From: Tubulanus polymorphus
Lineage: Eukaryota > Nemertea > Palaeonemertea > Tubulaniformes > Tubulanidae
Direction: 5' to 3'
NCBI RefSeq assembly: GCF_964204645.1
Contig: NC_134033.1
Span: forward strand, 4,215,631 to 4,279,630
Length of the DNA stretch: 64,000 nt
The position numbers and the translations under genes are program-made. A model generated the notes under the pieces. That model was given only the letters and a program-made list of their open reading frames with translations, did not search any database and was not told the origin of the DNA. Shown one piece after another: positions 16,998 through 46,602 of the stretch. Within the stretch, counting starts at the first letter, position 1, and each line of letters begins with the position of its first letter.

Positions 16998-17930
16998 AAG
17001 GCCTTCCCAAATAAAAAGGGAATTTCTTTTTAGTTCCCTTTTTAGTCCTAATTCCTGCAATATGAATATAAACACAGAATACACTTCTCCATAGCCCAAA
17101 ACAACTGAATCGCGTCGACTATAGAGTAAAAATGTCATTTATTAGTTCACATAAAACAGAATCTTACATACAAAATCAAGAGCTTTGAGTCCTGAGACTC
17201 AATCAATCGGGTTACATGATACCAGTTTTGTAGTTAAAACAAGAAATTGAGTCTCAGGACGCATTTTCAAAAATCAGTTTGAGGTATTATTTGTATCGGG
17301 TCTTAAAACATGCATTTTAGGAATTGCAATATTGATATGATAAGAAATTAGAACCGAGTCTTGAGACTCATTTTTGTACCTACTTTTCTAAATTGCGTCC
17401 TAGGACTCATTCATCATTAGATTCGAGTCTTGAGACTCCTTTTACTAAATTGCGTCCTAGGACTCATTCTAAAACGTTCACTGGTTTGAATCGTTAGATT
17501 CGAGTCTTGAGACTCATTTTAGTATCTGCTGTGCTAAATTGCGTCCTAGGACTCATTCATCGTTAGATGCGAGTCTTGAGACTCATTTTACTAAATTGCG
17601 TCCTAGGACTTATTCTAAAACTTTCACTGTTTTGAATCGTTAGATTCGAGTCTTGAGACTCATTTTAGTATCTGCTTTGCTAAATTGCGTCCTAGGACTC
17701 ATTCGTCGTTAGATGCGAGTCTTGAGACCCATTTTACTAAATTGCGTCCTAGGACTCATTCTAAAACTTTCACTGTTTTGAATCGTTAGATTCGAGTCTT
17801 GAGACTCATTTTAGTATCTGCTGTGCTAAATTGCGTCCTAGGACTCTAACGTTCTAAAACGATCACTTAATGAATCATTCGATTCCAGTATTGAAACTAA
17901 TTTTAGTATTTGCTTTACCAGATTTCAGGA
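16998..17930 (+). repeat. Left terminal inverted repeat of the giant element
   Basis: This matches the reverse complement of about 45805-46602. The outer ~330 bases match almost base for base, with scattered substitutions. They include AATCGCGTCGACTATAGAG and the TTGAGTCCTGAGACTCAATC region. The inner part is an array of palindromic subterminal repeats whose unit number differs between the two ends, so the two repeats differ in length. Confidence 0.88.
17356..17844. repeat. Subterminal palindrome array, left end
   Basis: Two short palindromic words alternate. GAGTCTTGAGACTC (6-bp arms around TG) starts at 17356, 17425, 17502, 17571, 17648 and 17793, with a one-base variant near 17717. GTCCTAGGAC, a perfect 10-bp palindrome, starts at 17397, 17454, 17543, 17599, 17689, 17746 and 17835. 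They are joined by ATTTTAGTATCTGCT or ATTTTACTAAATTG spacers. Such arrays resemble transposase or partition-protein binding sites; binding is inferred only. Confidence 0.85.
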
Positions 17931-19795
17931 CGCATTTTAAAACGTTCATTCAAGATTAGTAATTTTGATAGGAGGATTTGAGTCCTCAGCTCACTTGAGC
18001 CGCGGATGAAAAACCAGTTGAAAAAGCCACCATGATTTATGGAATACATGTATGATAGATAATCAGGCTTAATAGATACTTTTAAAACTGAGAATTGGAT
18101 ATCCAAAAACAGGAGATCTTCTGGTGAAAGTATTTTACAAACGTTCATACGACATTAATGCTAAACGCTAAGTCTATCATAAGCTAGGCCACAAAGGAAA
18201 CCATCATGCATCGTTATCGGAAAAAGACAATATTCACACACACACACAAAATTGCAATCTACAATCAAAAATCCATAAGTGATTAAAATTAAAGAAAAAC
18301 ATTACGGACAAGCCCATTGTAAGTAAACTACCCCAAATCCAAATATTGAAAATACGGTGTACGGATTTACTCTAGAAGTTTCAAAGAATTAAAACCGATC
18401 ACGAAATCTTAGCTCATTACAGCAGCTTTCGTTTTTCCGATACGTTTCGACGACAATTTAGTTAATTTGGCTTACTGGGACCAAATTAATCATGCAGTGA
18501 TATGTTATATAAGATACGGTCTATTCGATGATTTCGCGAAGGTTTGATAGACGGAAAATTCAGGAGTAAAAATAAAACGTTTAAATGAGCTAACACCGAC
18601 AGCTGTTGTGTGGTAGTTAGCAGTAAGAAAGCCTTCATAATATAGTTTACCGAGACATGTAATATAAGCAAAACAATACGACAATGTAAATTAATTTAGA
18701 AATCGAAAATCAAAAATCGAGTCTAGTAATAAGTGAGGGCAGCCACTATCCACGAACTATTGACTCCGTTTATTTTCTTTCCGTCAACGACACTGGCGCC
18801 GGGAACCACGAAAAGGACTTGTTTCAGTTCCTGCCGATCGTGAACGTCTAAATTTGATAACGAGTCATCATCGAGTACGATAGATCCTGATACTTTCCTG
18901 ACCGGCCTTCTACAACTAATTAATTGCTTTTTGGATACCGCGGCCACGTAAATTCCGTAATTTTTCCAATCAACGAGAACTACGTCTCCGTCGACGACCT
19001 GGATGTTCTTAGCTCCCTCGCCTGCAATATAACATACATAAACGGGTTTTAGTGTAGAACACATTCATTTATGTTTTCATTCTAGATGAGTAAAAAACCG
19101 CAGTCGAAACGCTCTGCGCACAAAACATTACGAGGTTTATCCCTAGTTTGTCAAAAGTTAGCAGTTAAAAGTGACTTCGAATCGGGATAAACCTGGATTT
19201 GTTGTTATGTGTGCGCAGGACGCTTTCGTAGAATGAGCGTATTGTATCCAATGTATTCACTCTAGTGTTAACACGATGACATACCCGGTTTGACGAGAAG
19301 ATTTTCACCAACGTCTGGGCAAACGACGTTAATATCCAAGCCAGGAACAGCTAAAACGAGCGGGAAAATAGAAACGATTTTAATATCCTTATCTTAATTC
19401 TATCGACTGATAAGTAGACATATTTTATAGCAACAACGTTACTTACTGTAGTTTGTCGATAACGTCTTATTTACGTCCTGCCCAACCTGAATTGAAGAGA
19501 CCAAGAACACATTGCCAATGATCGGTTTTCACTAACACTACAACAACACGATTGAAACCCTTTGACGACGGAAATTTCATTATTTGAAATCGCTTACCTT
19601 CTGTCTTTTCGGTCGCCTTTCATAGGTAGCGCCTGTGGTTACTGCTGGTCGCTTCTAAAAATAAATATTCATAATTAACACTGAATTGCGTGTACCGGTG
19701 TATTATTCTTCATTGGGTTCATTTGTAGCGGTTCAATAAACCACTGGAAGATATTCAGTACAGAGACTTTGATCTTAGCCAATAGGCCGAGAAGC

Positions 19796-20346
19796 GACTA
19801 CGATTACGATTACGATTACGATTACGATTTATTTACACTCCAACCATTTCCATGGTATATGAAGGAAAACTATTACACATGTATATACAAATATTTACAA
19901 AACAACACTGAAGTGATTAAAATTTAGAGAATGAAAACGTAACGAAATATATATATATATATACATCAACTATTTACAATACTATATATACTATTATATA
20001 CATCAACTATTTACAATACTATATATACTATTATATACATCAACTATTTACAATACTATATATACTATTGGAGGGATCTATATACATCTAAGCCGGTCTT
20101 AATGAATTCAGCTAAGTTGACCGTTGGGTTTTTCAGAATATCAAGGGTATTTAAGGTGTTCAAATTCAAAAAGTTTTGCGTTGTTTGTTAAGTAAGGTAC
20201 AGTCAAACAGAAAATGGGATTCGTCACCTAAAGTATTACAAGTGGGGCATATTCTATCGGCTCTGTCTGCGACTCAAACCGGTACGTAGCGCCGCCTGGA
20301 TATTCTGCGTTAAACTAAAGCGTATTCTGTTTCGCACATAAACCAT
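19796..20346 (-). mobile_element. LINE 3' fragment in an intron of the ParB-like gene
   Basis: On the minus strand the tail of a non-LTR reverse transcriptase is visible (DRICPTCNTLGDESHFLFDC). It is followed by an AT-rich 3' region and a terminal tandem tail seen on the plus strand as TACGAT units (about 19797-19828). It is related to the element at 790-1275. Near 19964-20069 a 37-bp unit (CATCAACTATTTACAATACT and following bases) is repeated three times. The fragment lies wholly within the intron between exons 20445-20392 and 19654-19598. Confidence 0.7.
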
Positions 20347-23300
20347 GCTATACCGGGTAATGTGAATATAACAAAAAGATGAATAATTTACCTGCAGCTG
20401 GGTTTCTAGTTCGTTTATTTTAGCCTCGAGGCACTCCTTTTCTTTCTGAATAAAAATGAAATGATTGTTTTTAGTTCCATGTAGTTCAAATATATCAGAT
20501 AACTAAGCCTACACATTCGGTTTAAATGCCTACCTCCAATACTGATATTGTATGGTCACTGTTCTTGAGTTTGAACAGCGTCTCTGAATTCACATCCTAC
20601 AATTGAACGACGAATGCACACATTAACAGCATAATCGTATATTCTATTTAACGGAATATCAACTCGGGATAAATGTACCTTCTGTTGTTTGAGTTTTGCC
20701 TTCAGATCACTGACCGCCGATCTTAGTTCGTTGTTTTTCTCCTGGAATATAAAGAAATGAAATCTCCTTAACTACATAATAGATATACAGGCTCTAATAG
20801 GCTGATGCTAAATTATATAATTTAGTCTAAAATTATAACATTTCCGACTCTAAAAATTCTATACCTTTATTTTGTCAAGATTTTCATTTAATACAACATT
20901 TCTTTCTGTGTTCGTGACCTATAATTAGAAATATTATCATGTTATCATAATCAACGACCTAACAGTGGGTATTAAATGGAAAAACTGTTGGAATATGCGA
21001 CAATTACCTTTTCAGTCAAAGCTCGATGATTGGATGGTGCTGTCGTTTCATCATCTTTTTGTTGGTTTTCATTGATGTTCTAGAGCAAACAAACACTAGA
21101 TTTAATTAATCGAATTTGACGCATGAAAGATATGAATAGGACGGTCACTCGGTGTTGCATGTTAAGGTAGCGTTATTTTTGTCATAATTACCTGATTTTC
21201 GTTAACACTTTCCTCCTCCGTCTCATCTACTGACATATTGTTTTTTCCCAATATTTCGTTCCTATCGATATCGGATTAAGAGAGTAGAAAAACATCAATT
21301 TTTGCACGTGCATTAAGGAAAATCATAAAATGATTTCGAGTGACAATTTTATTCACCGAATATCATTCTTTTACTTACGCGCAAATTTCCAAGGCAGTGG
21401 ATAAATCCATCGCCCCCCTTGCCATATCGACTAACACAGCCCGTAACTTGTTGCCTGATTTGACACGGAAAAATTTCCGTGCCACATGTCGAGTAAGCGG
21501 TCCTTTATTGTTTTTAACATTCGCCCAGTTCTGGTTTAGATTAGTCCAAGCGTGAAATGTTGGTTTGTCCAATTGGGCGAAAAATATCGCGATATTCATT
21601 TTGTTGTTTAGTGCTTTTCTCTGAAATAATCATCAACATTTATGTGCAGATATTTCATTTCTGAAACTGGAAGAACAACAGCAAAGAGAAAACAACTCAC
21701 ATTCAACTGATACACTGTTTCGAGCCCTTTATTCCATCGTTTAACGATTTCGGGATCGTTCGGAGTGTCACCCTCCAGGTCAGTCCTGCCAGCGTGGTGA
21801 TACAGGCATCGCCGACAGGTTAACACCTGATCCGCGAATGTAGCTGGCAGGTATTTCTCGTGCACGGCGTTGTGTTGAATAGCTAGCATCCTCGCCATGT
21901 CGTCCGGGAGGTCCGACGAATAGGTGTGTACCATCGCTGAACCATAATGATTCGGATCAGCACCTGCAAAGATTCGGATCAATTCTAATTGATCAATGCT
22001 AATGTCGGGCTTGTTTTAAAGTAAATGAATGACTTAATTTCAAATCGCGTGTAATGCAACACGAAGTTAGACAATATTGGTTCCTAGGAATGCTGCATTT
22101 GTTCTTTTAAACAAATGTAGTACAATTCTGTGACGCACCTTCAATCAAAAGCTCCTGTAGCGCGATTCTGGTGTGGTTTCCACCCAATATTTCGATAACA
22201 TTTTTTTCTAACGGAGAGATAATGGGCCCTGTAGCACGACCTACGAGGGACATAAATTTGATGCAGGGCGTGCCAGCATCTCAGATTTCAAACTGTCCAC
22301 GTGTTTCCAATCCACACATCGCACCTGGAGTGGCCACGACGGAGCTTTTAGCTTTTCGGTCGCTATTCTGTATGTACCTACGGAAAGAAAAATAGTTATC
22401 ATTTCACATGTTTTTCACTCTTTCTTTTCATTTTTTGGATGTTTAAAAACTCGATATGAAAGTTTTACAAATTTGTCAGATTGAACTGTGACCCATGGGT
22501 GATTGTAAACATTATGCACGACTGATTCTTTTGGGATGACCATAGTCTCATTTTCTTTATGGTAGCTAGCCTTATCTATTAAAGCCAGGGTGATGCATGA
22601 TGCATCGGAAATTAGACACTGATAACGAAAACGATTTGAAAATCAGCTCACCTTGTCTGAAGCGTATGACCTGTTTTTGAAGCATATCTATACAGGAAAG
22701 AAAGGGGATAAATTAAATTGATATAATTGAATAATCTGTTCGAAGCGATTATGAAATGCAAGATGTAATCTGGTCGACTTACCTGAACAAACCGATGAAG
22801 ATCTGTTTTCAGTACATGTATTTTCAATTTGTTGTACATGCATTTCTGTAAATATACCACGAATGGAAATATCTAATTATAGTTCTCTAAGTGTCACCAT
22901 AACTTAACTCATTAATGTTGAATCTAATTCGATTCTTACTTGATAATCAAATTTTTTCTTCCAATTTTGTATTACTTCAGAAATGAGGAAATTGACGTAA
23001 TATGTTTTCAGCAAATTATATGGCATGTTGTTTTTGTCTGTGAATTTCTTTATTTCCCGAAAGTAATTAAGTGAAAGTAACACATGAAGACCTACCATCA
23101 CGACATTTTAACAATTCCGATGGTTCAAGGGATTTTACTTCATCACAACCTACAAGAGATGAGATTTGTAAATTGTTAAGTCTCAATGAATTCTGATAGC
23201 AACTCGTAGTGTCCGGAGTTGTTGTAACATTGAATTAAATACGTTCCTGTTTGATTGATGGATGATTAACACTTTGTTTTAAAAAGAGGGAGATTATCGA

Positions 23301-24489
23301 TCGATATGATCTCGAAAAGTCGCTCGAAAATATAGAACAAAACAAGAATGGAATTTGATAAAAATGTAACACTTCACTCAATTCAGATATGATCAACTCG
23401 GATATCTTATCACATCTCAATTTGACTTCACTCAAGTTGGACACATGTCTACCACCACTTAAGGTCGGAAAGTATAATCAACTACTAGAGAGCATTCTAC
23501 TGTATTCTAAGTCATATAATGAACTCAAACACTCGAATCACTCTTGGAGAATAACAAACATATCACCAGGGGAGGTGTGAAAGAGACCTCACTTATTTCA
23601 CAAAGGCAAAATTGGTGTTATTTTTACACTCTAATACAGCTCGGAATAATGATATCTTAAACAATACATACCATTAGTTGAATCACCGAGGGCAGTGTTT
23701 AAGTGGAGTCCATGGAAAGGATCTTGTTCTAAATAGAAATAATACATTTCAAATTAAGAATTTATTTCAATGATTATATTAATAATGACATTTTTTATAA
23801 TTTGTATAATAATTCAAGTCGCGGCATGTAATTCCATGCGATTATTGACCTATGTAATTTCAGCATTTATTTCGACATAGAACAACCCGGGGCTGATGTT
23901 ATGGGCGGATTCATTTTAAAAAAGGGCCTTGCGAAAATTAAAGCAATAGGGTATGGGCGGCCATCCCCGCCAAACAGAAGTTTAGGTCATCACGTGAAGG
24001 ATAAACTCAAAAATTGAAGTATAATGTAGTAACGTGGGGGATAAACTCATAACGTGAAGGATCAACTCAGCTACCTTCCCTTTGAGCCAAAATGTAATGT
24101 GATGGCCGATCCAGTACGAAGTAACATTTCAAAACATCTACTGTTAACGAAAAATTCCCCGAACTCTTGAGTCGGTATTCGATAGAATTAGAACAGAGAA
24201 TAGGCGGAGTCTACTGTAGGCAATGACGTGCATTCTGAGCGTACTTTTGCAATGTAATATAGACAAATAATTCGCAATCAAAATTCATGGATCCAGCAAA
24301 CTACTTGTTATAAATGTTTATAATAAGTAGCTTGAAAAATTCCACCCCTTTCATGTTTTCATTAAATGCTTACTCGGAGAGTTCTTCTGGGTGTCAATAA
24401 TGAAACCTTACCATTGAATGTATAGATGTCGTTCGTTTCAAAAGTGTCATCAGAAGTACTTTTTTCATGGCGTATTGGACTTTTATTAC

Positions 24490-26843
24490 CTGTAAAAATT
24501 TAAAATCAATCTCATGTTGAATATACAATCGATATAAACATTATCTCACGTTAGTTATTGCCGCGTAGTTGGATTGGATTTTGTCGTTGCGGTTTATTTT
24601 TCGACCTTAGTGTATTGCATTTTCTTAAACCGAGATTAGAGTGAAAACGTGTATCTATTTACACGTCTATAATTGCGAATCGTAACTAAAACGCTGCATC
24701 TATAAAAGGCTACGCTGAGCCTGTTATCTGCTTTAGTAATGTTTGATTACTTGATAAACAGCAAGACATCATTGATTAACAAAATGATGTAATAATAGCC
24801 TTTACTTGGGAATTTGACGCCAACGTCGGATGGCAACGGCGGATCTTGGCTCTGATTCAGTGAGGAATGCCCCCCCCCCCCCAAGAATAGGGCATATCGT
24901 GATAAAAAGGGGACCCCGAAAAAAAACCAATAGACAAAAATTAACAGTTTTCTTTAGAAATACTTATGAATTTAAACTTCTTTTGGTATCAATATTTCTC
25001 GTTTACTCGTAAATTTTCAGCGCAACTTGATAATAATGTCTAGAAGGGGACCCCCGGCCTGCACTCTCTCATTGGAATCACGCCTGGAGAGAGGGTTACA
25101 GGGCGAGAGAGGTGATCAGTATATTTGAGAGTTTCTAATGAGCGTCTGTTATGATAACGGCTGAAGGTTTTAGGTCACACGTGGCCTGTGTTGACCACTA
25201 GACTGGATAAACTAAAAATAGAAAATTCGCGCTTTGGAAAAGTTCGTTAGCTTTTAATTTTAAGTCTTCTAGTTACACCCACACGATTTCCGTCGAGAGT
25301 TCGAGCACAAATATTACAATGAAGTGATTTCATCAAATACAAATTTAGTGACTCAAGGGAAGGCTCAAAACTTCTGGAATCAGTCCCACACGTGGTATCT
25401 TATTTATCTAAACGTTTTGTTTATGTTAATCATATATTTGTAGCTTTGTAAACCAGGCCATTTCACGCCTTTTTGATAATGTTAGCTATTAGTAGTTACT
25501 ATGTAGCACGTGTATCTTTGTGTGCACTAGCAAAGAACCCATCCCGGTGGAGGCCACTGGTGGCGGTATGATACTATCAGTGAGCCTAAAAATAAACGAC
25601 TGCGACTATGCCGTATAATGTTATAAGACATTGAAGCAGTGGTGATATGTTTTCCGTGTTTATCGCAGTTCCCGCATTTCTTTGGACTGACAAAATTGGC
25701 GTTGGATATATCAAACAGATAGCTATATGCAAAAAGTCGCTAAGATAAATCACGGACTCTAAAACGAATAAATACATTATCTCCACTAACATGAGGCAGA
25801 TGAAGCGGGTTCAGGTCACACGCGTATCTGCCGGCAAGCACACGATGGTTCGACCACACAACTTTTTGAAGCTCGATTTCTCAATTATTGTTGACCGGGT
25901 TGGCAAAATAAATAAAATTTGTGTCTTAATTTTTGTTCACACACACACACAACACCAGCTGAGCGTAGATGCAGCAGTGCATTGACCCATACATGGATGA
26001 ACAAGAAATCATAATCAAAAATATGATTGTCGATAAACGAAATCAGTCATCAAGTACTACGGATATCAATTTTAAAAGAGGAAATGAGTATCATTATATC
26101 AACTATGTGAGAGTCACTGAAGTTGATTCGATACGATTTTTATCAAAGGTTTAGTCTTTTTATTGTAGAAATATATTGCCTTCTCTTACCAGAAAGGAAG
26201 ACTATTAAAAATGCGCCAGATTGGCTAGATTTTTCTCTAGCCAATATAGAAGTATTTCTCTCGACTAGTCGAGACGAGAGTTGTGTCGAGGAAAATCGGG
26301 CGTAACAAAGTCGAGGAGTCGAGAGTAATCTAACCAATCAACATACAGCATAGTCGCGCGCATTTTGACACAACTTTGTTTATTTTTCTATCAGAAGTTG
26401 AGAAATCGAGAATTTGAGACAACTCAATTTCTCTTCAAAAAGTCGAGTGTGTGATGCTAGGTTTACACACACACACGTGTACATTCTAAACTGATCTACG
26501 TAATCAAATATGAAATTTTTCTGTTATTATCTAAATTGTGGATACTTTTCCAAAACTAAAAGAGATCATTTTTCGACTTTCTGGCATATTTTTCTAACCT
26601 TCCAATCATCTCAATGTAAATAAAGATAATTATTATTCTATATCAAACAAATGTTTGCCAGTATTACTGTGTCCGAATAAAGCGAGGTTCCCTTTTATAT
26701 AATGAGATCACATCGTCGAAAACTCAGGCGATTTTTAGATCTATTGAATATATTTCTAGATCTCGGTTATTGTCATTTTTCCCATTGTAGAATCTCTCAT
26801 TTCATGCTTATGTTACTAGATACAAAATCTTAAGGTAACTTAC
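24490..26843. other. Long intron of the ParB-like gene, no further gene seen
   Basis: This 2.35-kb intron has a C-homopolymer near 24866-24880, short CA-repeat tracts near 25940 and 26465, and inverted GACTAGTCGAGA-like words near 26260. I recognise no coding exon or complete mobile element. Short open frames here lack splice or domain support. Confidence 0.5.
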
Positions 26844-28088
26844 GAGAATCCTCTAATAACAATTCATTAAACGCCTTCACAAATTCTGATCTCGAGTTCA
26901 CTGTCCGCTTTAAACATTCGGGGAGGTTTTCGGTGATCAACTGGGACAGCTTGTAGCGCTTTGTGGTATTCGAAGTCGAAATCTGTGGAAAAAAGGTTGC
27001 GTTATAGAGCTCTGTTCACGTTCACTGTAAGAGAAGCGAAATTTGAACTTACATACCTTCACACATCCAATCGAGCCGGCTTGTTTTATGTCTTTTATAT
27101 GTACAGAGATATCGTTGTCATTAACCAACCATGCGTCGTTTCCGATGAAACGTAAACCCCACGGTCCTTCGACGTTTATATTGCGATCCATCGTCAGGTT
27201 CGTTTTATTTTCGGATACTGAAAAAATATAATAGTAGATATAAAAGGTTCATCCTCTGGAAATCCTATTTCAATGTCTTTGCTATCGGGAAAAACATTTG
27301 TATTTCATTTCATCGTTTTTGTTGAAGAAGAGCAGTTGTTAAAATACAATACATGGGTGTGTTTAGGAGTAGGCCTAGTGATGCTTTTAACAAGGGTTTA
27401 ACAACATAGCCAGGGGGGGGGGGGTTGTCCGTTCGAACGAACGCCCCTTTATAGAAAATGCCCTTAGTGATTTTGGTAATTTTTTTCAGCCAACTTGTTA
27501 CGAATTATTACACGCTTTATTACACTTGTTTGAGGTCAATTGATCATCGCTTTTGCGCATCAATCGAAACACTACTGCCTGAGCTATCGAATATGTAAAA
27601 GGGTTCAGAGGCACCACTTGAGATGTTCAGTGTAGGCCACATCCTACCAGCGACTCAGCAACAGATTCAAATTCACCACCTGTTGCAAAAATATACGCGG
27701 GAAAAAACCCAAGACGAATGTAGTTAGCAAACATTTTGATTTGAACTATTGAACATCCAGAGTCACTTCTATTAGCGGTGAATAAATGTCATTCTAACAT
27801 TTCAAATGGTTATACTGAAATGCATTTTTTTTTTTTATTGTTTGTGGAATAACTACAGAATTCTGTTTTTAAGCACACGATGCTCGCTTTCCTGGGATAC
27901 AAAACATGCAGAAGTGCCCTTTTTATAATTCAAACAACGCCCATTTCAAAATCCGGGCTACGGGTTTGAAGAAGGCACGATATTGATAACCCATTTACAC
28001 GGACTTGGTCATTCAAAAGTCTGTTAGACTTATATCAGTATCGATACTAAAACCCGTTAATTATAACTAAGTATAGATAAAATCTTAC

Positions 28089-28407: not shown

Positions 28408-28503
28408 ATAGGCCTCTGAGTTTAATCAAAAGCTTTTACACAATGTCCAGTCACGTATAGAAGAGCAAATTAAAGTACATCTCATAGTTTTAGTTCTCAA
28501 ATG

Positions 28504-30335: not shown

Positions 30336-30556
30336 GGGGAATCACAAAACCTATCTTCAGAGCATGGACATTCAAACATTCTCTGGAGTAGTCAAAACTG
30401 TTTCAAAAGTTTAGGACAAAATTAATTCATTCAGATTTCATTTCATTCCGTCACTTATGCAACACTCCAACTTGATATAATCGAAAATATGAAATGAAGG
30501 AGACATGCGCCGTAGCCGTTGTTATGTAACTTTAATCAATATTTTGGTCAGATTAA

Positions 30557-31993
30557 AGGGTAACTGACACTTTTTAAAAGATTTTCTACTTTTTACACTA
30601 AACGATATATTATAGTATACAATAAGGCTAGGTGATTTCATAATTGGACAAATCTTTTCAATCTAGTCAGAATTGATGATTTTGATGTTCGCGCACCTGT
30701 TCAGTGTATACATTGCTTCTGCTGAACGCGTGGTACTGTGTCTATTAATAGAACTACGTCACTAAAGTAACGGCTCGGAAATGATGTCTATAGAAATGAA
30801 TAGGAAATAAGCTACAAGAGCAATTCAACTTAATTTTATACCTATTTGGCATTCGAATTGAGACAAAATGCCTCTTGATTTTGAAAGTCTACATATTAAT
30901 GATTATACTTAACTGTTGAATGGACCATATCCGTTCCAACTAAGCGCAAAAATAGGATTTGAATAGCAATCCATGGCATTTTCTAGTAGACAGCAGGGAA
31001 CACGGATGTTTATATCATCGTTTTGTAATATCATTTAGTGATAGTAAGTAAGATCATGGTTAGATCTAAGAATATTTTGACTAATGAACTGATGATGAAA
31101 CTTAGACAGAATTAGCCGCAAGAATAATTTCAATTCTTTTCTTGAAATATACCTCGTATTGGTAGCGGCTTTGGTCACAAAATAAGAATATTTCCTCATC
31201 CATCCTATTTTAAAACTTAGAAATAACATTTGTGAAAGATTTGTGATGTAATCTATCAAAACTCTTCTGCAGCGTGAAACTTTAATCGAAAAACATTATT
31301 CCTTTGAATATTTGTTGTAAAGCTGTAGAAATTTATGAAAGTTTTTGTAGAGTTTTGAAGTGTTAGTTTTAAAACTAGGCCTACTTAGTCTTAAATGACT
31401 TTGAAAAATAGTAAACGAATATGAATCTATTTATTCTTTAGCGAGATCGAAATCTGTGATTACATAAGACACTGTAGTATGCTTGTGGTGCTGAACTATA
31501 GGTGAACTATGGAGCAGCAGTAACAGTGCTGAGAGCTTAGCATAGTGTACTTTAAAATAGCTTCATAGCAGCGGATTGAAATCTGCATCTTCAATTTGAT
31601 CGATTTAGCCTATTCAAATTACTCATTGATTCTTTGAAATAGGTTTATGCAATAGACAATAGATCCTTTTAACTCCCTGGCCAGTTTCAAAGCTGTAAAA
31701 CAATCTGGCATTGAGATATAACAGAAAATACACGCAGTTTCCTCAAAATTCAACACATTTCTATAGACGCTATTTCTCAGCTCTGCCTGTAATGACGTTG
31801 CAGCGCGCACCTGCTGATTTAGCCGACGCTGAACAGTAAGCGATGTAAACAACGAAATGAGGTCAAAAATCTTGTTACAAAATCACAAATTGCGCGTTAA
31901 CTAAACATTTTGGAACAGAACGGTTGAAGATGTGTGTGTAGATCAATAGAATACATCATATTTTGAAATAAAAAAAAAAGTGTCAGTTACCCT
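30557..31993. mobile_element. TTAA-flanked DNA transposon, non-autonomous
   Basis: The ends AGGGTAACTGACACTTTTT (30557) and AAAAAGTGTCAGTTACCCT (to 31993) are inverted repeats. TTAA lies on both sides (30553-30556 and 31994-31997). The 1437-bp interior shows no transposase. A TTAA target and an AGGG terminus fit Kolobok or piggyBac derivatives; the exact family is not determined. Confidence 0.75.
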
Positions 31994-34041: not shown

Positions 34042-36500
34042 GGGATACAACAATGTAGCAAGTCCAGCCGGGAGAATCTTCCTTAGGATAATTTAGTCTT
34101 TTAGATCAAGAAATTCCTTAGTTTGGGCTAAACTACCACTATTGCAGCAATACAACAAATCTATCATTATGCCGTTTTATCTAGTTTTGATAGTATGCCG
34201 TATCTAGTTTTGATAGTCGGATCGTCCTTATCTCAATAGAAAACTTCATTTTGCATTTATTTGTCTACTAATTGATTGAATAATTAAAATGCCTTGATCG
34301 AATTTGGTGAGTCAGAAAAGCGATCAGGAAGCGTCTACCACAGTTTCGGCAGAAAAAAAAACAGTTTTCGTATTCCTTTGATAACATTTTGAACATTAAC
34401 ACTGTACTCGTAATTACAATTTACTGATACTCTATGTATATTTTGGTGGAAATTGTTCGAACGGATTTTAACTTAAAATGCGTATTACTTAATTGCTTTG
34501 TTCTTTTGATGAAATATTTATGATAGGGCCGAGCTTAAATGACACAGAAATTTCCTGTTTGTAGCAATTGCATTAATCACTTGAATATCTTGTCTGACGC
34601 ACAGCCGTATTAGAAATAGATCAAAAACAAAATACGTTAATCATCGAGTCCCGTATTTGCTAATTTGGAATATGTATCAGCTATAACGTTTCAGCTGCAC
34701 CGCTCACCGCTTAAAATGGCCTGCTATCGCCCATGAATTGACGACGGGCTTTTGAATCAGATCATGGACATTAACTAATTTATACGTCTACGATCAGATT
34801 GACCTCGTACAGTCAAAGATATTTCATCATTCTTCTAACTACACCATATGAAAGTCTGGGGGATGTTTGCAGTTTGGATAAAATAAGATGTTTGATTCCT
34901 TATCAAAAAGTTCTTGAAAACAGATTCAGAGCGCGTACGAAATGTGTCAAACTTAAGTGGATAAACCGTAAACGATGTACAAATAATTATATGTATCGTT
35001 AACATCATCGAGGAAAGGAATTGTTCCATCTTAGATTAATCGGACTGAATCAGTCTGATTACTCCGAGGTTCCATCAATTTGAATTCACTGGTGAATACT
35101 ATAGAGTGACTGACGTATTTAGTATAACAAACCTATTCCAATTTGGATAGGGCTCACATCCACAGGAACCCGCGAGTAAGATTTTTATGGTTGTATAACT
35201 TGCCCCTTCTAAGTATCTGAGAAGTTACACTTGCTAGAAAAGGTCTTGCCAACCTCCAAAAAGTAGTCACATGGAAGGTCTCGACTACAGATATGGCCGC
35301 GGGACTAAGGGTCGGATTCTGCTCGCGGGGGTCTATGGTCCAATTTTAAGCATTGCATATTTAGATTAGACCCCCCTCTATCTGTCTGTGAGGTTTCAGG
35401 GCCCTGTCCGTAATATATGATCGCTTTTAGTACAGTTTTATCGCATACAATTTTTTGGATCGTTATATTAAGTCCACAATGAAACGTTTTGCCTCCATCA
35501 CTAGAATTCACGGAGCGCTAATTATAAAGATAATATCTAATAGCGAAAGTAAGCAGTTTTTTTTGCTTTTGAGTACATATCGTCAAATTTAAAATGTGTG
35601 TATGATTTAGTAATTTGTTACATATTATTACTTTCATGAATATAGATTGAATATGAACGATATAACAGTAACAGTAATTATTCCTTTATGCCTCAGTGAT
35701 CATATGTAAACGGAAGAATTGTCTTATAGAGTTGATTGAGAGAGATGTGATAATGTCCATTATGTGTGCATTTTAGACAAAAAGTACAATATCCAGTTCG
35801 CGTTTTTCCACAGCTAGAATTCATTTTCCTAAGACTTGTCTAAACCATATAGTTAAATCGAATCCCATCTCGTCTAAACTTATTCATCACTAACAAAGGC
35901 TCTCCACAACTACAACATTGGTTTGATAAACTCAGCGAAATATAAACTGAAGCATTATAAGGAGTCCACATACTTCGGTATCAAAATGTGTTTTTGATCA
36001 AGGTTAAATAAAGTGTGGTCGTATTCTTTATTTCTCAGATCGGAACAGGCCCGACAAAAACTAATTCTAAAACAGTAGTATTCACTATTTGAAAAAAATG
36101 TCTCAGTGTTTTGATCTAAATATGATTTGCTGTAGTAACGCACGTTCAGAAAATCTCAACACCGTCAATGCAGTAATTCTAAGCACTTTGAATTCTTGTG
36201 TCGGTATTTTCTTACACAGTTGCTTGCGTATCAAATTGTATCTCAGTCCATGTTTCGATATTATAGAAACCTCATAGGCCTAAGAAAAAAGGAATTCTTT
36301 ATTTCTTGACACTTTGATAGGTAATGGAATGTCAGTGGCAAAATCTGGACTTCGAATGGGCTTAATTCCTATATCCAGAGATTCCAAGTTCCACCTGTTT
36401 TACATAAAATGTATGAGCATGGATGTATAATCCAGGTCAGTGATACGATACGCCTACGGGTGGTGATGAGTTATATCGGTACATATACTTAGTGTAAATG
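34042..36500. other. AT-rich interior of giant element, no gene seen
   Basis: No exon chain, domain or terminal repeat is recognisable on either strand. Short open frames here lack protein character and splice support. Confidence 0.5.
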
Positions 36501-36519
36501 CGCGGGCTGTTTTGAATTC

Positions 36520-36632
36520 GCAGTGAGTTGTATGGAGATCGTGAACGAAGGGAGATTGGATTCGAGCGGCCGTATCATTTAGTTTCTCCAGATCGGGATT
36601 AAGGATCGATACGAATTTAATACTTATAGTTT
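36520..36632 (+). other. Possible untranslated first exon of the transposase gene
   Basis: A donor-like TTTGAG followed by GTGAGTAAC ends a GC-richer stretch on the plus strand, about 2.5 kb before the first coding exon, whose acceptor is at 39164. The placement is plausible for a 5' UTR exon. There is no transcript evidence. Confidence 0.2.
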
Positions 36633-36649
36633 GAGGTGAGTAACTTTTT

Positions 36650-39160
36650 CACTTATTACGTGTATGTTTTAAGCAAGAATATTTCCTCTATCGAAGAGAG
36701 GCGACAAATGAGTAGCTACACACATAGGCAAAGGGCAAGTGGGATTTCTGTTTTAATAGGAACGTAAGCATACCCGACCGTTCAACATACGACACTTTTT
36801 GATGACCTAATGCATAAACTTGCATTTTTAAGGCAAAACACGGAAATTAAACTGATATTTCAAAAATATTTAAATTTCAAAACTACTTTACGCTTTTACG
36901 CTTTTAAGACTTTAAAAGACTTTACCGCTTTCCAACAATTAAATGCTAGATACTTATAGACAAAAGGGTATCTAATTTTGTGTCAGTTTGGGGTTGGTAT
37001 TACAAATCAGGCGCAGTGGAACATTCATTATGATTAGCGGAAGGTTTTGAGATAAGCAGTGGGTACTATAGGTTTTATTTGACCCGATTATTACTATGTT
37101 GCGTGTACTTCTCTCCTGGGTTTCTACGAGATGTTAAATTTTGCGCCCGGGATAGGATGTTTACACATTTCAGTAATACATTTGAATAAATAAAAATATC
37201 CAGACTGACATAAATCATTGATATACGATTGATCAACATTTGTATGAGTCAGCCGTAAAAAGGAACAAATGCTCAGCAAAGACGGCACCAGTGATATTAG
37301 TATATGCGTTATAAAAATAATCTTTATTTCACGAATCATTTAAATCATTTTACGTGAAAAAATTGTTTGTCGAAAGATAAAAGGCAGCAGTGGAAGAGCC
37401 ATAGCCGTCCGCAGGCAGTATTGAATAGGGTCTAGAAACATTTAAACCACCACTATAAGTGTTGCTTAGCTTCCTTGATGATTTCACAGATCTGGGAAAA
37501 TCAAAATAGGAAAATCAATCCCATTAGTTAGCTGTTCCTAGATTTGAATGACATGTATTAGGTTTTTAATCTCTCGATGAAAATACATGTGTAATTGGAA
37601 AGATATTTCGTGAACTTCCAGATTAAAATCATACAGGTTAATTCGTGTACTGAAATCCTTATATATAGCGTTTTAAAAATTGTTTTGACTGTTCTTGAAA
37701 GTTGATGAGAAAACACAAAAATACGACTTGGGGAACTAGCTGTGTCTAAATGGATACAAGATATCAAAATGTTTTAGTAATTTAATTGAATAGCTCAATG
37801 TGAATCCTAGCTTTTGTAACTTTTTGAGCCAACAGTTATCAAATAAGGGTTTTTAGTTTAGATTCAGATTGAATGAATAATATTAGATGATACGCTAGGA
37901 CATTAGACTAGGGGAACTAGGATTATAAAGCAAATAAGAATTAGAAAATGTGTAGTTGGGATATCTAGGGACGGCAGTGTATATAGTATAGTGAATGGAT
38001 TATCATTATTAGACAACTCTTGAATATATGGCCTCAAGCCCGGGGAGAGTGCTCGTCAGTGTGAACATCTAAGACTGTTTGGATAACTATTCAGTTTACA
38101 ATTTGTACATTAGCAAAACAATTGCTCTGACTTTGGGTCTGACACATTGACAATAAATCCTCTCAACCTCTTGACACTAAGAAGTTTGGATACAAATTTG
38201 AGAATGTTCACTCGGGGAGCACATCGAACCCTCCAATCGTAGACATTTTTAGGAACTAATTCAACGAATAGTTGCATAATTTGGAATAATGAATTTGATA
38301 AAATGCAATATTGAACGGAGATCAGGGTCACAGCTACTACGGGTCAGTCACTGGAAGATTGAGCAAGAGTAAATAAAAGAACATATAACAGAACGCGAAC
38401 TTAAGCTTGGATTTATTTTTGTAGAGCGGGAATTGAACTATGTAAGTCATTGTTTACATGTGCTAGAATTGTTCTGCTCTATACACAGTTCAATTCTTTC
38501 AAAGGTTGTGTCATAGATGAAAAGTGGCTTTAAGTGTGTAGAGATCATTTATTTTGAGAAGTTTAAGCTGTTTGAAGCGTGGTTCAGAGTGGGCAGTGAA
38601 GTTAGGCTTGGTAATAATTCGGTTAGTTGTTTTAAGTGTAATATATTTTTTGTGTTTATGGTGAGTGACCCCATGATAATAAACCATAGTTTATATGAGG
38701 AAGGACAAGTGCATCGATCGAGGATGAGTTGATTTTGGTTTAGAATTTGACTGCATTTATAGATGATACCCAGGCCTTGTGAAATTATTTTGTGATCTTT
38801 TCGGTCATATCCACCGATACGCGCGCACCAAAGTCAGTTGCTAAAAGTTTGATATACGCTAGATTTAAGGGATGATATAGTAACGGACTGCGAGAGGGGT
38901 CAACGAGCCTGCAACCTTCTCTACAAATAATTCATTTCACACGTTTTTCCATCATTTCCTTTCTTTAAAAAGCAGAAATATGACGGTGGAAATATGAAGC
39001 TCCAATACACGAAAATGCAAGAATATGCGATTTTTGTTCGTCGGCATCAAATACTTTAGGGCCTATGTATGAGAATTCACTAAACAGGATGAAAATATAT
39101 TTAATTCAGTTTTTGAAGTATATTAGCATTTTGTCGTTCATTTGTCTTAATTTCTATTTT
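36650..39160. other. Region before transposase gene, no gene seen
   Basis: This is AT-rich DNA with no exon I can support on either strand. The minus-strand frame at 38110-38331 lacks splice borders and a recognisable family. The region may be the long first intron of the transposase gene. Confidence 0.45.
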
Positions 39161-39358
39161 ACAGCTGACACAAACATGTTTTCTGCTAGTACTCCTAAGA
39201 AATCCAGACTGAGTGTATCAGACCATACTCCAGGTACCTATCATGACCTACTTTTTACTATTTCTATGCATCTACAAATTGTCGTTTTATGAGTAATATC
39301 CGCTGTATTGATTGATATATCGATAGCTACTTTAAACGCATGTTATCAATCTCCTCAG

Positions 39359-40404
39359 GTTTAACCGCCATTCCGAGTAATGAAACAAACAGCGCCGTTG
39401 AAGATAGTGTTTTTGAGGAAAGCGTCTTCAGTTCAGGTAGATTTTCTAAGGAATTTTCCATAAATGATGTATATTAACATAACTGTGATGCACTCGTACC
39501 ATAAAATGATTTGTTTTTCATGATTCTACTTGTAGCTTTACCCGGCAATCCGTGTGAATCGAAAGATATCCTAAATGAAAGTGTTTTTGAGGAAAGTGTC
39601 ATTAGTGCAGGTAGATATTCTGATATTCCTAATAGGATAATTCACACTTATTCTATATCAAGATACCTGTAAATGACTTTAGCGAAAATGTACTTGTAGT
39701 TCTACCTGGCAACCTGAGTGAGGGAAAAATGTCCTAGATGAAAGTGTTTTTGAAGAAAGCATAATCAGTACAGGTAGATATTCTGATATTCCCAGAAATT
39801 TCTGTTGCATCAAGATCCTGCACGTGCTGTATGTAAACGACCTTTCCTGAAATATACTTTTAGTTTTACCCAGCAATCTGAGTGGAGGGAACGAAGATAA
39901 TAGTGTTTTTGAGGAAAGCGTCCTCAGTTTGGGTAATTATATTGAAGAATTTTTCCAAATAATGTTATTATGATTATGAACCCATGATGTAAAACAACTC
40001 TTTTCATGGATCTACTTGTAGTTTTACCCTCTCATCCGATTGAGGCGAACGATATCCTAGATGAAAGTGTTTTTGAGAAAGGCGCCGGAGCAGGTAGATA
40101 TTGTGATATTCCCAAAATGATAATTTCTGTTACATCTAGATCGAACTATGTGAAATGAAATTTCCTAAAATATACTTGTAGTTTTATCCCATGGTCAAAG
40201 TATTTTTGGAGAATGTGTCATCAGTTCAGGTATACATGTATTATGATTTTCCCTCCCCAGACAATAATCTAAATATTAATTACAGCAACTTATTCATAGA
40301 AAAGAACACTTCCACCAATTAACTTTTAGAGTCACCAAGCAATGCGAGTTGTGAAATGGACAGCAGTGAAGATATAGAATTTGAAGAACATGCGACCAGT
40401 TCAG
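39359..40404 (+). repeat. Tandem exon array encoding acidic repeats
   Basis: Seven consecutive short exons (48-78 bases, all phase 1) and their introns are copies of one unit. The exons recur as DESVFEESV-like coding, and the introns recur as GTAGATATTCTGATATTCCC at the start and TACTTGTAG at the end. Exons start at 39359, 39536, 39700, 39864, 40022, 40182 and 40330. One copy (39700-39773) has lost a base. Confidence 0.75.
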
Positions 40405-40867
40405 GTAAAATATATTTTTTTTCAAGGGTTTTTCTGGTTTTCCAACCAACGGCAAAGTGAGAAAATCAATATGGTATTAAACAGAATATTAAAAATTTTA
40501 TCTAATAAGGATGAAATATGAAAGCAAAAGAGTGCAATTATCAATTTTGTTTCATTTGTATTTACCGAATATTGATATCACATTACATGCAGTTGTCTTA
40601 TGCAATTTAGTATGTCGAATTTATTTTCACTTTTAACAGATAGTCAACAACAACCCCTGGAGAGCTCGCTTATCCTTCCTCATTCAAAGTCACGTATAGC
40701 CGAATCTAGCAGTAAGTATAATAGGGGAGAAAATAAGCAATTTCAATTTAGGAATTTATGCAGTTTACATAGTTTGGTTTCAATCGTTTTAAAATATTTT
40801 CCATTAACCCGATGAAGCATATCTCTTTATTATTGCAACGAATTTTCTGATGAAGCCCATAGAAATA

Positions 40868-40961
40868 TAACAGAACCAAACGGGTAGTCTAATATTTCAC
40901 CGTCGCCAATGGGGGCGCCACTGCCATAAACGTCGAGAAATTTACACTCGAGGTTCTGTTA
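40868..40961. repeat. Small inverted-repeat element
   Basis: TAACAGAACC at 40868 is matched by GGTTCTGTTA ending at 40961, bounding 94 bases in a transposase-gene intron. This may be a very short MITE. No clear target duplication is visible. Confidence 0.3.
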
Positions 40962-43900
40962 AAAGGGACAGTGTGCATGTATTAAACTTTCAAATAACCC
41001 ATTCCTTCTGTTGATGTTACAGCAGTAGCCTACATGACAATCCCCAATATTTACTGATAGCCTTTACAGTGTATAAGTATGCCATTTGAGAAACGATCAA
41101 TAATTATAAGAGATAATACAGTCAATAAAAGGCGATAAGCTACGCTTTTATATTGTCAACGCGGAGTCCAGTAAATCCGTTGACGGCAGAGATTGCGGCT
41201 ATTGACGGTCAGATATCAAACGGAACTAGAAGCATATCCAATTCCTTTATGTATTTCTATTCGTAAGAAGAATGTTCTCACGAATTTCATTTTCTCTAAT
41301 ATTGAAATGGAAGTTGAAAATCAAAAACAGAGAAATCACAATGATTTTGGAAATATCCATTGGAAACGCATGGTAAAATGCAATTCCATAATCTCTATTC
41401 ATGCATCAATCTCTTTTCAGGATATCCCAAAGAAAGTCTTTTTAACAAAAAAACATCATCGACAACGCTATTGAAATCTCTTCATGTGATCTGTAAAAAA
41501 CATCGTACCGATTTTCTGCACATGGCTGATATAAAGAACCAGTCCTGCGGGAATCCTATTGGTGTCGCAATATTTCGGATCGTCATCAGTTTATCGTGAA
41601 CACTCTGCAAACATGTACGCAGAATACATCGCGCATTAACCTTACTGTCATGGGAAGATCTGTTTGCCAAGGCTGCTGGTTAAATGTCTATGGCATCAGT
41701 AAATCGACGCTTTACAAAATCAAGTTTAAACAGGATAAGTCAGAATGCCCGGAGAATATATCCATCAGAAAATCTAGCCCTGAATTCGTTGAAGCAACTT
41801 CTTGGCTCTCAAAGTATTTGGAAAATACAGCACAATCTTCTCCCGATAAGACTGAAAAATGGCTTCCGCAGATATTCCGAAAAATTGACCTCTACCGGGA
41901 GTACAAAACAGAAAAAAGCGACAACAATGATAGATATGTCAGTCAGTCTACATTTTATCGGATCTGGTCAGAGTTGTTCTCATTTGTCAAAATCAAGAAG
42001 GTAACTTATTACTTCACTTTGCCTACATATTTCAAAAATATATTGACATTTTCTAATATGAATGATGCTTGAATGTTTACAGGGTAGTACATTCTCGAAA
42101 TGTGACGATTGTGTGAGAATCCAACAATTACTTCAATCAACGCAGAACCCGATATCCCGCAAGGAAATAATGGCAGAAAAACAACGCCACATTTCTACAG
42201 TAATGTAAGTACATGTAAATGCTATCTTCATCGTATCTAATAAGGAGGCTGTTTGAATTTCCATACCGCACTTGGAATGTTGTTCCAATCTCAGTGTTTG
42301 ATAATTTCAATGTTCTTACGTAAAAAACCATCATGTATTTCTCTGCTTCAGGACTGAGAGACTCGCCTATTATGCACGCGTTCGTAGAGCGCAGACGAAT
42401 CCGAACCGTTACGTTAGTTTAATAGTCGATGGTATGGACCAAACGAAGTCATTTCTTCCACATTTTGCCGGAGAAAAAGGAAAGGTGAGCAACTCGTCTA
42501 GCCATCTTATTGTCATTTAACTTACGATTTATCGCAAATTTCCCATAAATCTAATCCAGTTGTATTACCCGGTACACAAACCATTCTATAGAACTGCCCA
42601 GTAATTAACCTCCAATGGCGTACAATGATAATGAACTGTTTGATAATAAACAAAACCCACTGTAAAACATATTTAATCTGCATTATTTATCATAGCCTTT
42701 TTGCACTATATTTTCTAATTACCGGTATTTCTCTTTTCAGTTCATGACAGCTACTAATTTACTAAAAACACACATAACTGGTGTGATAAGTCATGGTCAT
42801 AAACTATCTCAGTCGTATGTCGATTATCATCTTTATCCACACGACAGCAACATGACGATGAATGTTATTCTCAAGACATTATGGCGTATATCTAAGGTAA
42901 GACGAATATAAACAATTTAATACCGGTACACATTTCTATGTCAGCAAATGTGAAAAGAAATGTTAAATTCATTTATTTAATGTTAAATTCATTTATTTAC
43001 TTTTTTAGAATGGTCATCTGCCACCGCATTTGTATTTGCAAGCCGACAACTGTGGCCGCGAAAATAAGAACAAATACGTTTTAGCCCTCTTGCAAATTCT
43101 AGTATAGAAGAAAATATTTAACGAGGTGAGGAATCTGCTAGTTGCAGGCTACTAATAAATGGAGGCTTTCAATTAAGAAGCAACGCAAATACTCACCTAT
43201 GTGTACCTCGGTTCGGTAGAGATTACATATATCGACAAACTTGTAACTAACTACATGTATTGGCAAGTTATGCAGTTTCTACTGCAATAGATATCATTTC
43301 TCATATATATTTCCACGTGGTATATCTTTTGAACTTATAACTTGAATTCAGAACCATACATCGCACCCGTATTATTGTGTGGGTTATGAGATCGAAAATT
43401 CTAAAGACGAACTTTTTCAATCATTTCAGATTCAGTTGAGTTTTCTCTTCGTTGGTCATACGCACGAAGACATCAACCAGCTGTTTAGCGTCTATGCCGA
43501 TAGGTTGAGAAGAGAAGATGCATTCGATATGGCCGGCCTGCTCAAACTGTGCGATGGTATCGAGTTTTGTTGGATATTCGATCTTGGCTTGCTCCACATA
43601 TCGTCAACATGAAGAACCATTCGAAACCAAGGATATTTCTATTTCGAAGGGACAGCCAAGATCAATCCCAAATAAACATGTACTATAGGAGTTCATCAAC
43701 TCAGGAATGGCACTGCATGGAAGGCGGAGTATTGACAAGTATACCAACTGGTACTCCTTCAGTGCTCGATTTAAATTATTCAAACATCGAAATCAAGGAT
43801 ATGAAAAAGAATATGGAGAAATGGAAAAGCTTTTTGCCACAGGAGAAACAAGGCTGGTGGAATGATTTCCTCGATACCATTGAAACTAAGACAGTCAAGC

Positions 43901-44125
43901 TAGCAGATTCTGCTGCATGGTACCTTCCATATTTGAAGGCACGGGAAGGCATTGAACAGGATATCAATGAAAGACACGTTGAGATACCGAATCCTTCAGT
44001 AAGTACATGTATATTGCGGTGATTCAAACTGATAGATATCTATCTATTTGGAAGTCAGCTTTTACGCTAGATCGATCTATTCATTCATACATGCACACAT
44101 TCTCTTTCAGATCGTCGTTTCGTGA

Positions 44126-45800
44126 TTTTGAACCTGAATTCGGGACATTTGATTAGTATGCAGCAAAATATATATCTGACAGGTTAGTATTGATGGACCA
44201 CTTTTAATTCAATAATTCACCAGTTTTAGTTCACTTCACTTAGCTCTAGTTTGGTGATGCCCTAATTTGAAAAAAATGACATTTCTACCGAACTATTCAA
44301 TTGCAGAATCAATGTAAAATGCGTGGCGCTTGTATGCCCATTCATTTGTTGTAATAATCTGTCCATAGCCTTCTTCAATACATCTCGTTTTCATAACGTC
44401 ATTCAAAAAGAAATGTACGGAATAAGGCTTATTAAATATTAAAATAAACACTTCCTTAGATAAATTAGCACATCTGCACATACTGCACTTTTTCTGCATT
44501 CTGCTTCCTAGTGGTTTTTTAACTCGGTAGACTGAGTGATATACAATAGTACTGAATTCCAGTTGACTATGAAAAAACTGTGATATACTGCGTGGGTATA
44601 GTGTAGACTGAGCGTTATGTGTAGACTCGACATCGGCCCAAATATGCATATTTCAAGTCTCGCATTTCAAAATCACTCTATCGTCAAAGTATGAATATTT
44701 CTTGTATTTGTAAAGTAGTCTATAAACTGCATTTTATCTTAAGGCCGAATCTAATGTTTCCTTAATCGATAGTTTGAAAGTACGTCTTTAATGCATTTGA
44801 ATTTTCAATAGCATTATTAAAATTTGTTACTTAGGATTATAGGTAATTGTTAGGATCATTCATTATAATATCTGAATCGTTTGAACTTCTATGCGAATTC
44901 AGTTAGCTTATTATCTTTTTTTTTTTACTTTCAGGGACACTATCGAGTGCGCTGGAGAAGATTAATTACTAGTGAAATGCCGATCCCCTAGCTTAAGGGC
45001 TAGAACAGTCGCCTATCAACTTATTTCACGCTGTCCCCTCTCTGGGCCAACTGCACCGCTGATTGCCAGGGAATGAGATGTCCCAGTGACCACGTTTGGT
45101 TCCGCGATGGAACCATGTTAAACAAAGTGTAAATTAGGAGTGTCCTGTTCTACAGCAATTGCTGACCGAAAATACAATGATTGTCACTGGAGACTGCACT
45201 CCAACACAGTTAAAGTGTGAGTTTTACCCTATCGAGAGATAAGCATAATGGAGGGCAGAATAATGCCCCGGAATGACATAAAGGCAGCGCCTGTTGTAAT
45301 GATTTCAATGTATTTATTAATTTTTGCATTTTTAAATAGGTTCTAAAAGTTTTGTTTTTACGTAGCTTAACGGAATAGCATTATGTTTACATAGTCAATG
45401 ATATCCAGGATCAGCCTAATCATTCTGTGTATAAGTCCAATCTGTCCGTGATATTATTTTTTGATGTTCATCCTTATGGATTTTGAATTATAGATTGCAT
45501 AATTATTCGTGATTACAGCATCGTGAATGTACGAGTATAGTAATGTCGTGTAGAATGTTTAAACACTACTTCAGCGGGAATATCTGCTGTTTTTAGAGTA
45601 AATCAAAAACCCTCCAAATGAGTAAATTTTGGTATCATCGAATATTCAATTATAAGTTTTAGTATCATTTAGGCTTTATCATATATTGTACATATAATGT
45701 AATTGGAAACACTATGGTGGCTTTGTCAACTGATTTTGATCCGCATTTAGATTAAGCAAAACACTCAAAACTAACGATTCCTTAAATGGAGGTTTCTTAG
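44126..45800. other. Spacer between transposase gene and right terminal repeat
   Basis: No further exon is supported. A T-rich acceptor-like tract ending TTTCAG lies near 44935, and AATAAA occurs near 44446, so 3' UTR sequence of the transposase gene could lie here. The minus-strand frame at 44293-44649 lacks a family or splice signals. Confidence 0.4.
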
Positions 45801-45804
45801 TACG

Positions 45805-46602
45805 AAATTATGTGAAGCAAACACTAAAATGAGACTCAAGACTCGAATCTAACGACGAATGAGTCCTAGGACGCAATTTAGCAAAGCAGATACTAAAATT
45901 AGTCTTAAGACTCGAATCTAACGATTCAAACCAGTGAAAGTTTTAGAATGAGTCCTAGGACGCAATTTAGTAAAATGAGTCTCAAGACTCGCATCTAACG
46001 ATGAATGAGTCCTAGGACGCAATTTAGTAAAATGAGTCTCAAGACTCGCATCTAACGATGAATGAGTCCTAGGACGCAATTTAGAAAATCAGATACTAAA
46101 ATGAGTCTCAAGACTCGAATCAAACTATGAATGAGTCTTAGGATGCAATTTAAGAAAAGTAGTTACTAATATGAGTCTTAAGACTCGAATCTAACGATTC
46201 CGCGGGTGGGCCCTTTGTAATGAGTCCTAGGACGCAATTTTGAAAACCTGATGCTAAAATGAGTCATTATTGCAGTTCTTAAAATGCATGTTTTAAGACC
46301 CGGTACAAATAATACCTCAAACTAATTTTTGAAAATGCGTCCTGAGACTCAATTTCTTGTATTAACTACAAATACTTGAATCATGTAACCCGATTGATTG
46401 AGTCTCAGGACTCAAAGCTCTTGATTTTGTATGTAAGATTCTGTTTTATGTGAACTAATAAATGTCATTTCTACTCTATAGTCGACGCGATTCATTTGTT
46501 TTTGGGTATGGAGAAGTGTATTCTGTGTTTATATTCATATTGCAGGAATTAGGACTAAAAAGGGAACTAATAAGAAATTCCCTTTTTATTTGGGAAGGCC
46601 TT
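45805..46602 (-). repeat. Right terminal inverted repeat of the giant element
   Basis: This is the inverse of the left repeat, ending GGGAAGGCCTT at 46602 before the AAAG duplication. It has its own palindrome array: GTCCTAGGAC starts at 45863, 45952, 46009, 46066 and 46224, alternating with GAGTCTCAAGACTC and diverged variants. It has fewer perfect units than the left end and a non-repeat insertion GCGGGTGGGCCC near 46202. Confidence 0.88.

Follow-up and report, generated by a model that had tools for sequence, protein, structure and literature searches.

Whether a block of almost 30 kb can be a single mobile unit is the question raised by a stretch of DNA in the nemertean Tubulanus polymorphus. 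The stretch, which we call the window, is the 64,000 nucleotides of C9:4215631-4279630; it holds no N bases, and the block occupies its positions 16998 to 46602 (29,605 bp). A sequence-only reading had described the block as a DNA transposon that carries a DUF7869 gene and a ParB-like gene between long inverted repeats and is flanked by a 4-bp duplication. All of these are present, and paired copies exist elsewhere in the genome. In our view the element is very likely a DNA transposon of giant size and cut-and-paste type, which probably belongs to the Sola superfamily or stands close to it. This conclusion draws on the paired ends, on the duplication with its empty sites, on the collinearity of copies at three loci and on palindrome arrays confined to the ends, together with a transposase gene, a homologue of which has a predicted RNase H-like fold, and, on the other strand, a predicted ParB-like gene.

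The ends of the element carry the following features (window positions).

16998 to 17924, plus strand: left terminal inverted repeat, an outer part of about 320 bp starting AAGGCCTTCCC with a subrepeat array after it
45795 to 46602, minus strand: right terminal inverted repeat, in the same layout of an outer part of about 320 bp and a subrepeat array
17187 to 17846: 14 palindromes GMGTCYYRRGACKC of the left end, by pattern count
45861 to 46413: 11 palindromes GMGTCYYRRGACKC of the right end, by pattern count

The alignment of both ends matches the earlier estimate of about 0.8-0.9 kb for the inverted repeats. The two ends had also been called exact inverses, which holds for the first 31 bases but not for the whole 0.8 kb: identity over the outer 320 bases is 96.6%, and the full alignment of 810 columns has 668 identical positions (82%) and 103 gaps, mostly in the inner repeat array. 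This inner part consists of tandem subrepeats around the 14-bp palindrome GMGTCYYRRGACKC, present in 25 copies in the window, all of them in the element. A slightly wider pattern is found 29 and 27 times in the two other full copies described below. The palindromes all lie within 1.1 kb of an end, with none in the element interiors or in the rest of the window, and we read them as candidate protein-binding sites.

Immediately outside the inverted repeats lies a short duplication, and the uninterrupted target is preserved at three further places in the window.

16994 to 16997: left AAAG duplication, from the junction sequence
46603 to 46606: right AAAG duplication, from the junction sequence
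6415 to 6428, plus strand: empty-site paralogue 1, CAGTAAAGGCGATT
54212 to 54225, plus strand: empty-site paralogue 2, CAGTAAAGGCGATT
62512 to 62525, plus strand: empty-site paralogue 3, CAGTAAAGGCGATT

The left flank ends in ...CAGTAAAG and the right flank begins with AAAGGCGATT. The three paralogues are 90-95% identical to the element flanks, and the alignments of the flanks to them end at 16997 and 46602, the boundaries of the element. The AAAG duplication with three empty sites, as first read from the letters, is therefore borne out by CAGTAAAGGCGATT at 6415, 54212 and 62512.

To find further copies, the genome (267.8 Mb in 77 contigs, labelled C4, C6, C7, C9, C12, C36, C59 etc.) was searched with a 300-base left-end probe, which gave at least 20 matches, and probes of unique DNA adjoining each end separated left-type from right-type ends. 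Paired inverted copies of the end were found at two places besides the window, which gives the following both-ended copies.

C9:4232628-4262232, the window copy: 29,605 bp
C9:4988659-5017605: 28,947 bp
C6:17690597-17718215: 27,619 bp

The three are collinear with local gaps, and their pairwise identity is 97.3-97.8% over aligned ungapped columns, an upper figure from a fast alignment, with BLAST blocks at about 85 to 99%. While all three have paired inverted repeats, a perfect 4-bp duplication is present in two, AAAG in the window and ATCT in the C6 copy; the right flank of the third appears to be rearranged. Full copies with different 4-bp flanks were what the sequence-only reading had asked for, and the C6 copy (ATCT/ATCT against AAAG/AAAG) is one. 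These targets led to the rejection of piggyBac, whose target is TTAA; the duplication of Zisupton is 8 bp. Broken copies are present on C12 and C36, with lone ends elsewhere, and many of the copies and ends are concentrated on C6 and C9. A mid-element probe matched 11 places, five at 94% or more and two at 87-90%, the other four being short weak matches. At C12:9111101 the copy is interrupted by 11 kb of inserted DNA, and no left half was found within the 34.9 kb examined; on C36, three remnants, from the left end, the middle and the transposase, lie far apart. At neither locus was a second junction found.

The outer 320 bases of 11 ends (five right, six left) were compared across the element copies. 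Among the five right ends the likeness is 97.7-99.3%, and both ends of any one copy are 96.2-97.2% alike. The right ends are thus closer to each other than to their own partners, which fits a unit that spread whole. The six left ends form two groups, the window and C36 (98.4%) and the other four (97.8-99.7%), with 96.2-97.2% between groups; only inside each group are left ends closer to each other than to their partners.

Could the size be an accident of this site, a DUF7869 transposon of normal size having been enlarged by nested insertions after it landed? Two features in the window copy speak for such growth.

30558 to 31993: private stretch of 1.44 kb (1,436 bp), found only here among four copies compared and skipped by the three others covering the region
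20032 to 20258, minus strand: dispersed-repeat fragment inside the element, with a second occurrence at 913 to 1141 of the window (72% identity)

By this comparison the private stretch is an insertion later than the shared unit, which puts that unit at roughly 27-28 kb. The blocks that align with the two other full copies include the repeat fragment (in C6 partly), and those that align with C36 do not; read in a sister copy, the fragment presumably resembles the end of a non-LTR (long terminal repeat) retrotransposon protein. Growth would also agree with the scarcity of conserved reading frames between the transposase and ParB-like genes, where a codon-pattern scan for further genes from 24 to 39 kb gave nothing convincing. 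However, the two other both-ended copies carry most of the same approximately 27 kb collinearly, which largely refutes growth in place and indicates that the large unit itself moved; we regard enlargement after landing as improbable.

Segmental duplication of a chromosome stretch that holds a transposase pseudogene would agree with the clustering on C6 and C9 and with the rearranged right flank of one copy. It is nevertheless a very improbable account of the copies, whose similarity ends at the inverted repeats while the flanks differ, and two of whose sites have exact 4-bp duplications, one of them with three empty paralogues. Size, the accessory gene and a weak match to a fish-herpesvirus family might point to a Maverick/Polinton or to an element of viral derivation like Teratorn. 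This is scarcely credible, as the duplication is 4 bp and not the 6 bp of Polintons/Mavericks (PMC10045372), the transposase is DUF7869, the longest stop-free stretch entirely within the element is 180 amino acids, and no polymerase or capsid family was matched by any of the selected pieces scanned. Outside the two genes, Pfam scans of window exons and open reading frame pieces gave only matches below the cut-off. In two of these scans, one piece matched the fish-herpesvirus protein family at E 0.08 and 0.048, below the family cut-off.

The giant cut-and-paste transposon, which we prefer, requires a transposase, and the element has a gene for one.

39176 to 44969, plus strand: transposase gene (DUF7869) of many exons, from tblastn of protein P0001, Pfam PF25273 and copy alignment

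The exons for the catalytic part fall within about 42353 to 43999, and PF25273 matches window exons at E 7.7e-12 and 9.6e-7, in agreement with the DUF7869-like gene noticed at the outset. A DUF7869 homologue is predicted to have an RNase H-like fold with the DDE/D residues (structures were compared with VIA-align, which re-ranks Foldseek's top 1000), and DUF7869 is very probably a DDE/D transposase domain. Searches of the PDB by sequence with the transposase profile (E up to 10) gave three weak matches, and NCBIfam gave no match to the transposase. In viral contigs, 31 pattern matches to transposase relatives were seen and none was confirmed.

Other DUF7869 genes were encountered in the genome and among the collected proteins. 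A second DUF7869-bearing repeat family is found at C8:2888406-2907359, C59:3019-24015, C4 (about 5.82-5.84 Mb) and C7 (about 11.66 Mb). It measures about 19-21 kb in two aligned copies, mostly 97-99.7% identical, and four copies share an exact right end, ...TTTCGGACGAGGTT, before different flanks; inverted repeats were not found, and the left end varies among copies. C10:8119898-8120467 and C36:87617-88186 each encode a complete DUF7869 domain (1-192) in one open frame of 317 amino acids. Identity between these regions is 99.2% across some 9.9 kb, which suggests that C36 is, in this part, a duplicated or alternative-haplotype version of C10. In proteins P0013 and P0026, DUF7869 shares a gene model with an OTU (PF02338) or a PF02902 domain, the latter of which we take to be Ulp1 protease.

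The second gene of the element runs on the opposite strand.

22845 to 18726, minus strand: ParB-like accessory gene of 15 predicted exons with a stop at the end, from exon borders and copy comparison

Its exons have AG acceptors and GT donors in the window copy, borders that are partly by construction since exons were picked by eye for them; the 5' end was not found. A GGNHTR..A motif lies in the exon at 22139-22367, which has a frameshift in the window copy. Across the four copies compared (window, C9:4988659, C6 and C36), in-frame stops are confined to this exon, in which C36 also has 8 gap positions. C9:4988659 and C36 miss one base of exon 21379-21620 relative to the window, the C6 copy is without the middle exons, and C9:4988659 is without one short exon. 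Given these frameshifts, gaps and missing exons, no examined copy of the gene reads unbroken. With exon 22139-22367 left out, the ratio of non-synonymous to synonymous change (dN/dS) is 0.60 (31 synonymous and 67 non-synonymous differences, all pairs), suggesting weak constraint at most.

The earlier ParB-like label is favoured by phage and PHROGs comparisons and finds no counterpart in Pfam, and we hold the product to be ParB-like at weak-to-moderate strength. The sole family listed in PHROGs was 'ParB-like partition protein' (E 0.044), and hhalign against six P1-type ParBs aligned the same motif (probability 0.9%, P 0.062). By tblastn, 43 phage records matched, none clearly below E 1; the 12 listed, some of them duplicates of one phage, are annotated as ParB-like (nine), DNA methyltransferase (one) and lysin (two). 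Plasmids gave nine weak records with the ParB-like part, none annotated ParB. A profile of five phage proteins scored 16.4 bits on the ParB-like part against a best of 8.6 in 2000 shuffles, and 77% probability (E 2.1e-5) in hhalign, a test that is partly circular as the five proteins were found with the query itself. Scanned over 1073 window open reading frames, 120 proteins and 3474 open reading frames of other loci, the same phage profile ranked the window motif exon first with 7.9 bits; the DUF7869 protein P0111, without the motif, reached 7.8, which places single exons at background.

One of the 120 DUF7869 proteins, from another phylum, combines both domains. P0070 of Mytilus edulis has LGGNHLRTA in a ParB-like GGNH domain that precedes the DUF7869 domain in one predicted protein, and 66 of its residues align with the nemertean ParB-like protein (phmmer E 0.0014 among the 120 proteins; 10.0 bits against a best of 7.3 in 1000 shuffles). 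P0070 was collected for its DUF7869 domain alone, ranked 11 (2.4 bits) in the phage-profile scan and was spotted by eye; it is possibly a wrongly merged gene model. The 217-residue ParB-like part matched no Pfam family, ParBc included, and no PDB sequence, both up to E 10. NCBIfam gave no match to the ParB-like protein, protein-database searches with its reading (588 and 298 amino acids; E 0.001 and E 1) gave no relative, and the methyltransferase motif [SDN]PP[YFW] was absent from the six frames of three copies.

In the mechanism that we propose, a transposase made from an intact copy would bind sites in the inverted repeats, most obviously in the palindrome arrays. It would pair both ends, cut, and join the ends to target DNA 4 bp apart, so that a 4-bp duplication would result. 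Where intact, the ParB-like protein would most likely bind element DNA, perhaps the palindromes, because ParB proteins bind palindromic sites, and might act as an accessory factor in end pairing, in silencing or marking, or in stability. The part of the transposase is well supported by the anatomy, and that of the ParB-like protein is offered as a hypothesis; we infer that the DUF7869 transposase performs the catalysis and that the element moves by cut-and-paste and not by replication. A bolder proposal, which we find doubtful while granting it a real chance, is that this is an animal lineage of giant DUF7869 transposons in which the ParB-like protein loads at parS-like palindrome arrays and bridges or marks ends about 30 kb apart, a partnership that would recur in molluscs and algae as an old eukaryotic module for large DNA. 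We rate the bridging lower on account of the broken ParB-like copies.

Several points weigh against a giant cut-and-paste transposon. The evidence is sequence and predicted structure, not observed movement. Compared with other copies, the transposase of the window copy has frameshifts and a stop, so that this copy would need help from another. Z in the fold comparison is below 8, a level that may reflect just a common arrangement, and the model is of a homologue 38-39% identical rather than of the window protein. The second DUF7869 family, in which no inverted repeats were found, indicates that the domain alone does not imply the anatomy described here. The absence of GMGTCYYRRGACKC from 100 shuffles flatters the palindrome arrays, as the pattern was derived from the sequences later counted. 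Finally, the C9:4988659 copy has TTGA on its left and TAAA on its right, so the duplication rule holds in only two of the three both-ended copies. All 400 queried bases of its left flank match two other C9 places at 95 and 92% (seven matches altogether, the other five partial or weaker). Both paralogues (301 bases each) cross the element boundary into a common continuation, which the right flank of the copy does not resemble. The left boundary of this copy is exact and its right side derives from another place, explained most simply by rearrangement after insertion. The C36 flank, used as an empty-site probe, proved to be a dispersed repeat with 40 matches.

The genes around the element are paralogues in tandem, which have CUB, LDL-receptor-A, leucine-rich and seven-transmembrane domains and a sub-threshold C-type lectin match. 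This receptor-gene array includes window positions 2775-9035 and its paralogues, and the element lies inside an exon of one member.

46607 to 47681, minus strand: 5' part of the interrupted host exon (paralogue 6127-7509)

The insertion point falls inside what paralogue 6127-7509 has as a single open stretch of 461 amino acids, with the sub-threshold C-type lectin match. The insertion broke one member of the array, and other members remain.

Taken together, DUF7869, a domain of unknown function, is now very probably a DDE/D transposase, and an animal element of about 27-30 kb is documented as a whole unit at three sites. The Mytilus edulis protein P0070 is a possible second animal case. It becomes testable whether the pairing of distant transposon ends is aided by ParB-like proteins and palindrome arrays. 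As far as the literature was searched, nothing was found on DUF7869, on 'GHTHEDID' or on Tubulanus polymorphus with transposable elements and a genome assembly together, and the nemertean element was absent from the papers listed on giant animal elements (Repbase lay outside this scope).

Among known systems, Polintons/Mavericks (PMC6431247) and Teratorn (PMC10175614) are also large animal DNA elements with inverted repeats. However, Polintons have a polymerase and a retroviral-type integrase (PMC6431247), and Teratorn combines piggyBac with herpesvirus genes (PMC10175614), none of which was seen in the nemertean pieces scanned. The giant KDZ and EnSpm elements of Ectocarpus, which reach 30.3 kb and 15.2 kb, are alike in size and in having accessory genes, whereas their transposase families differ (PMC12477816). 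Sola elements have a DDD transposase, 4-bp duplications and inverted repeats of 11-1124 bp, and are mostly 2-9 kb long, with some above 15 kb (PMC10741241). The nemertean element shares the 4-bp duplication, and its inverted repeats of about 0.8-0.9 kb fall within that range, but at nearly twice 15 kb it is unlike most Sola elements (PMC10741241). It is probably a member or a near relative of Sola.

The closest counterpart is Sola1-1_Ec32, a 21.5-kb giant Sola1 of the brown alga Ectocarpus, whose opposite-strand gene encodes a ParB-like and DNA methyltransferase protein (PMC12477816). Giant elements in general have nested insertions common to copies and frequent transposase pseudogenes (PMC12477816). 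The sequence-only reading knew of no named animal element with this combination, and none turned up in the literature searched; outside animals, Sola1-1_Ec32 is a precedent (PMC12477816). Both elements are giant and pair a transposase with an opposite-strand ParB-like gene, and the Sola-like label was chosen mainly because the nemertean element follows this plan so closely. In contrast to Sola1-1_Ec32, the nemertean element resides in an animal, measures 27.6-29.6 kb, has no methyltransferase motif that we found, and is likened to it by layout rather than by transposase sequence. The plan of a giant transposon with an opposite-strand ParB-like gene would thereby extend from a brown alga to an animal.
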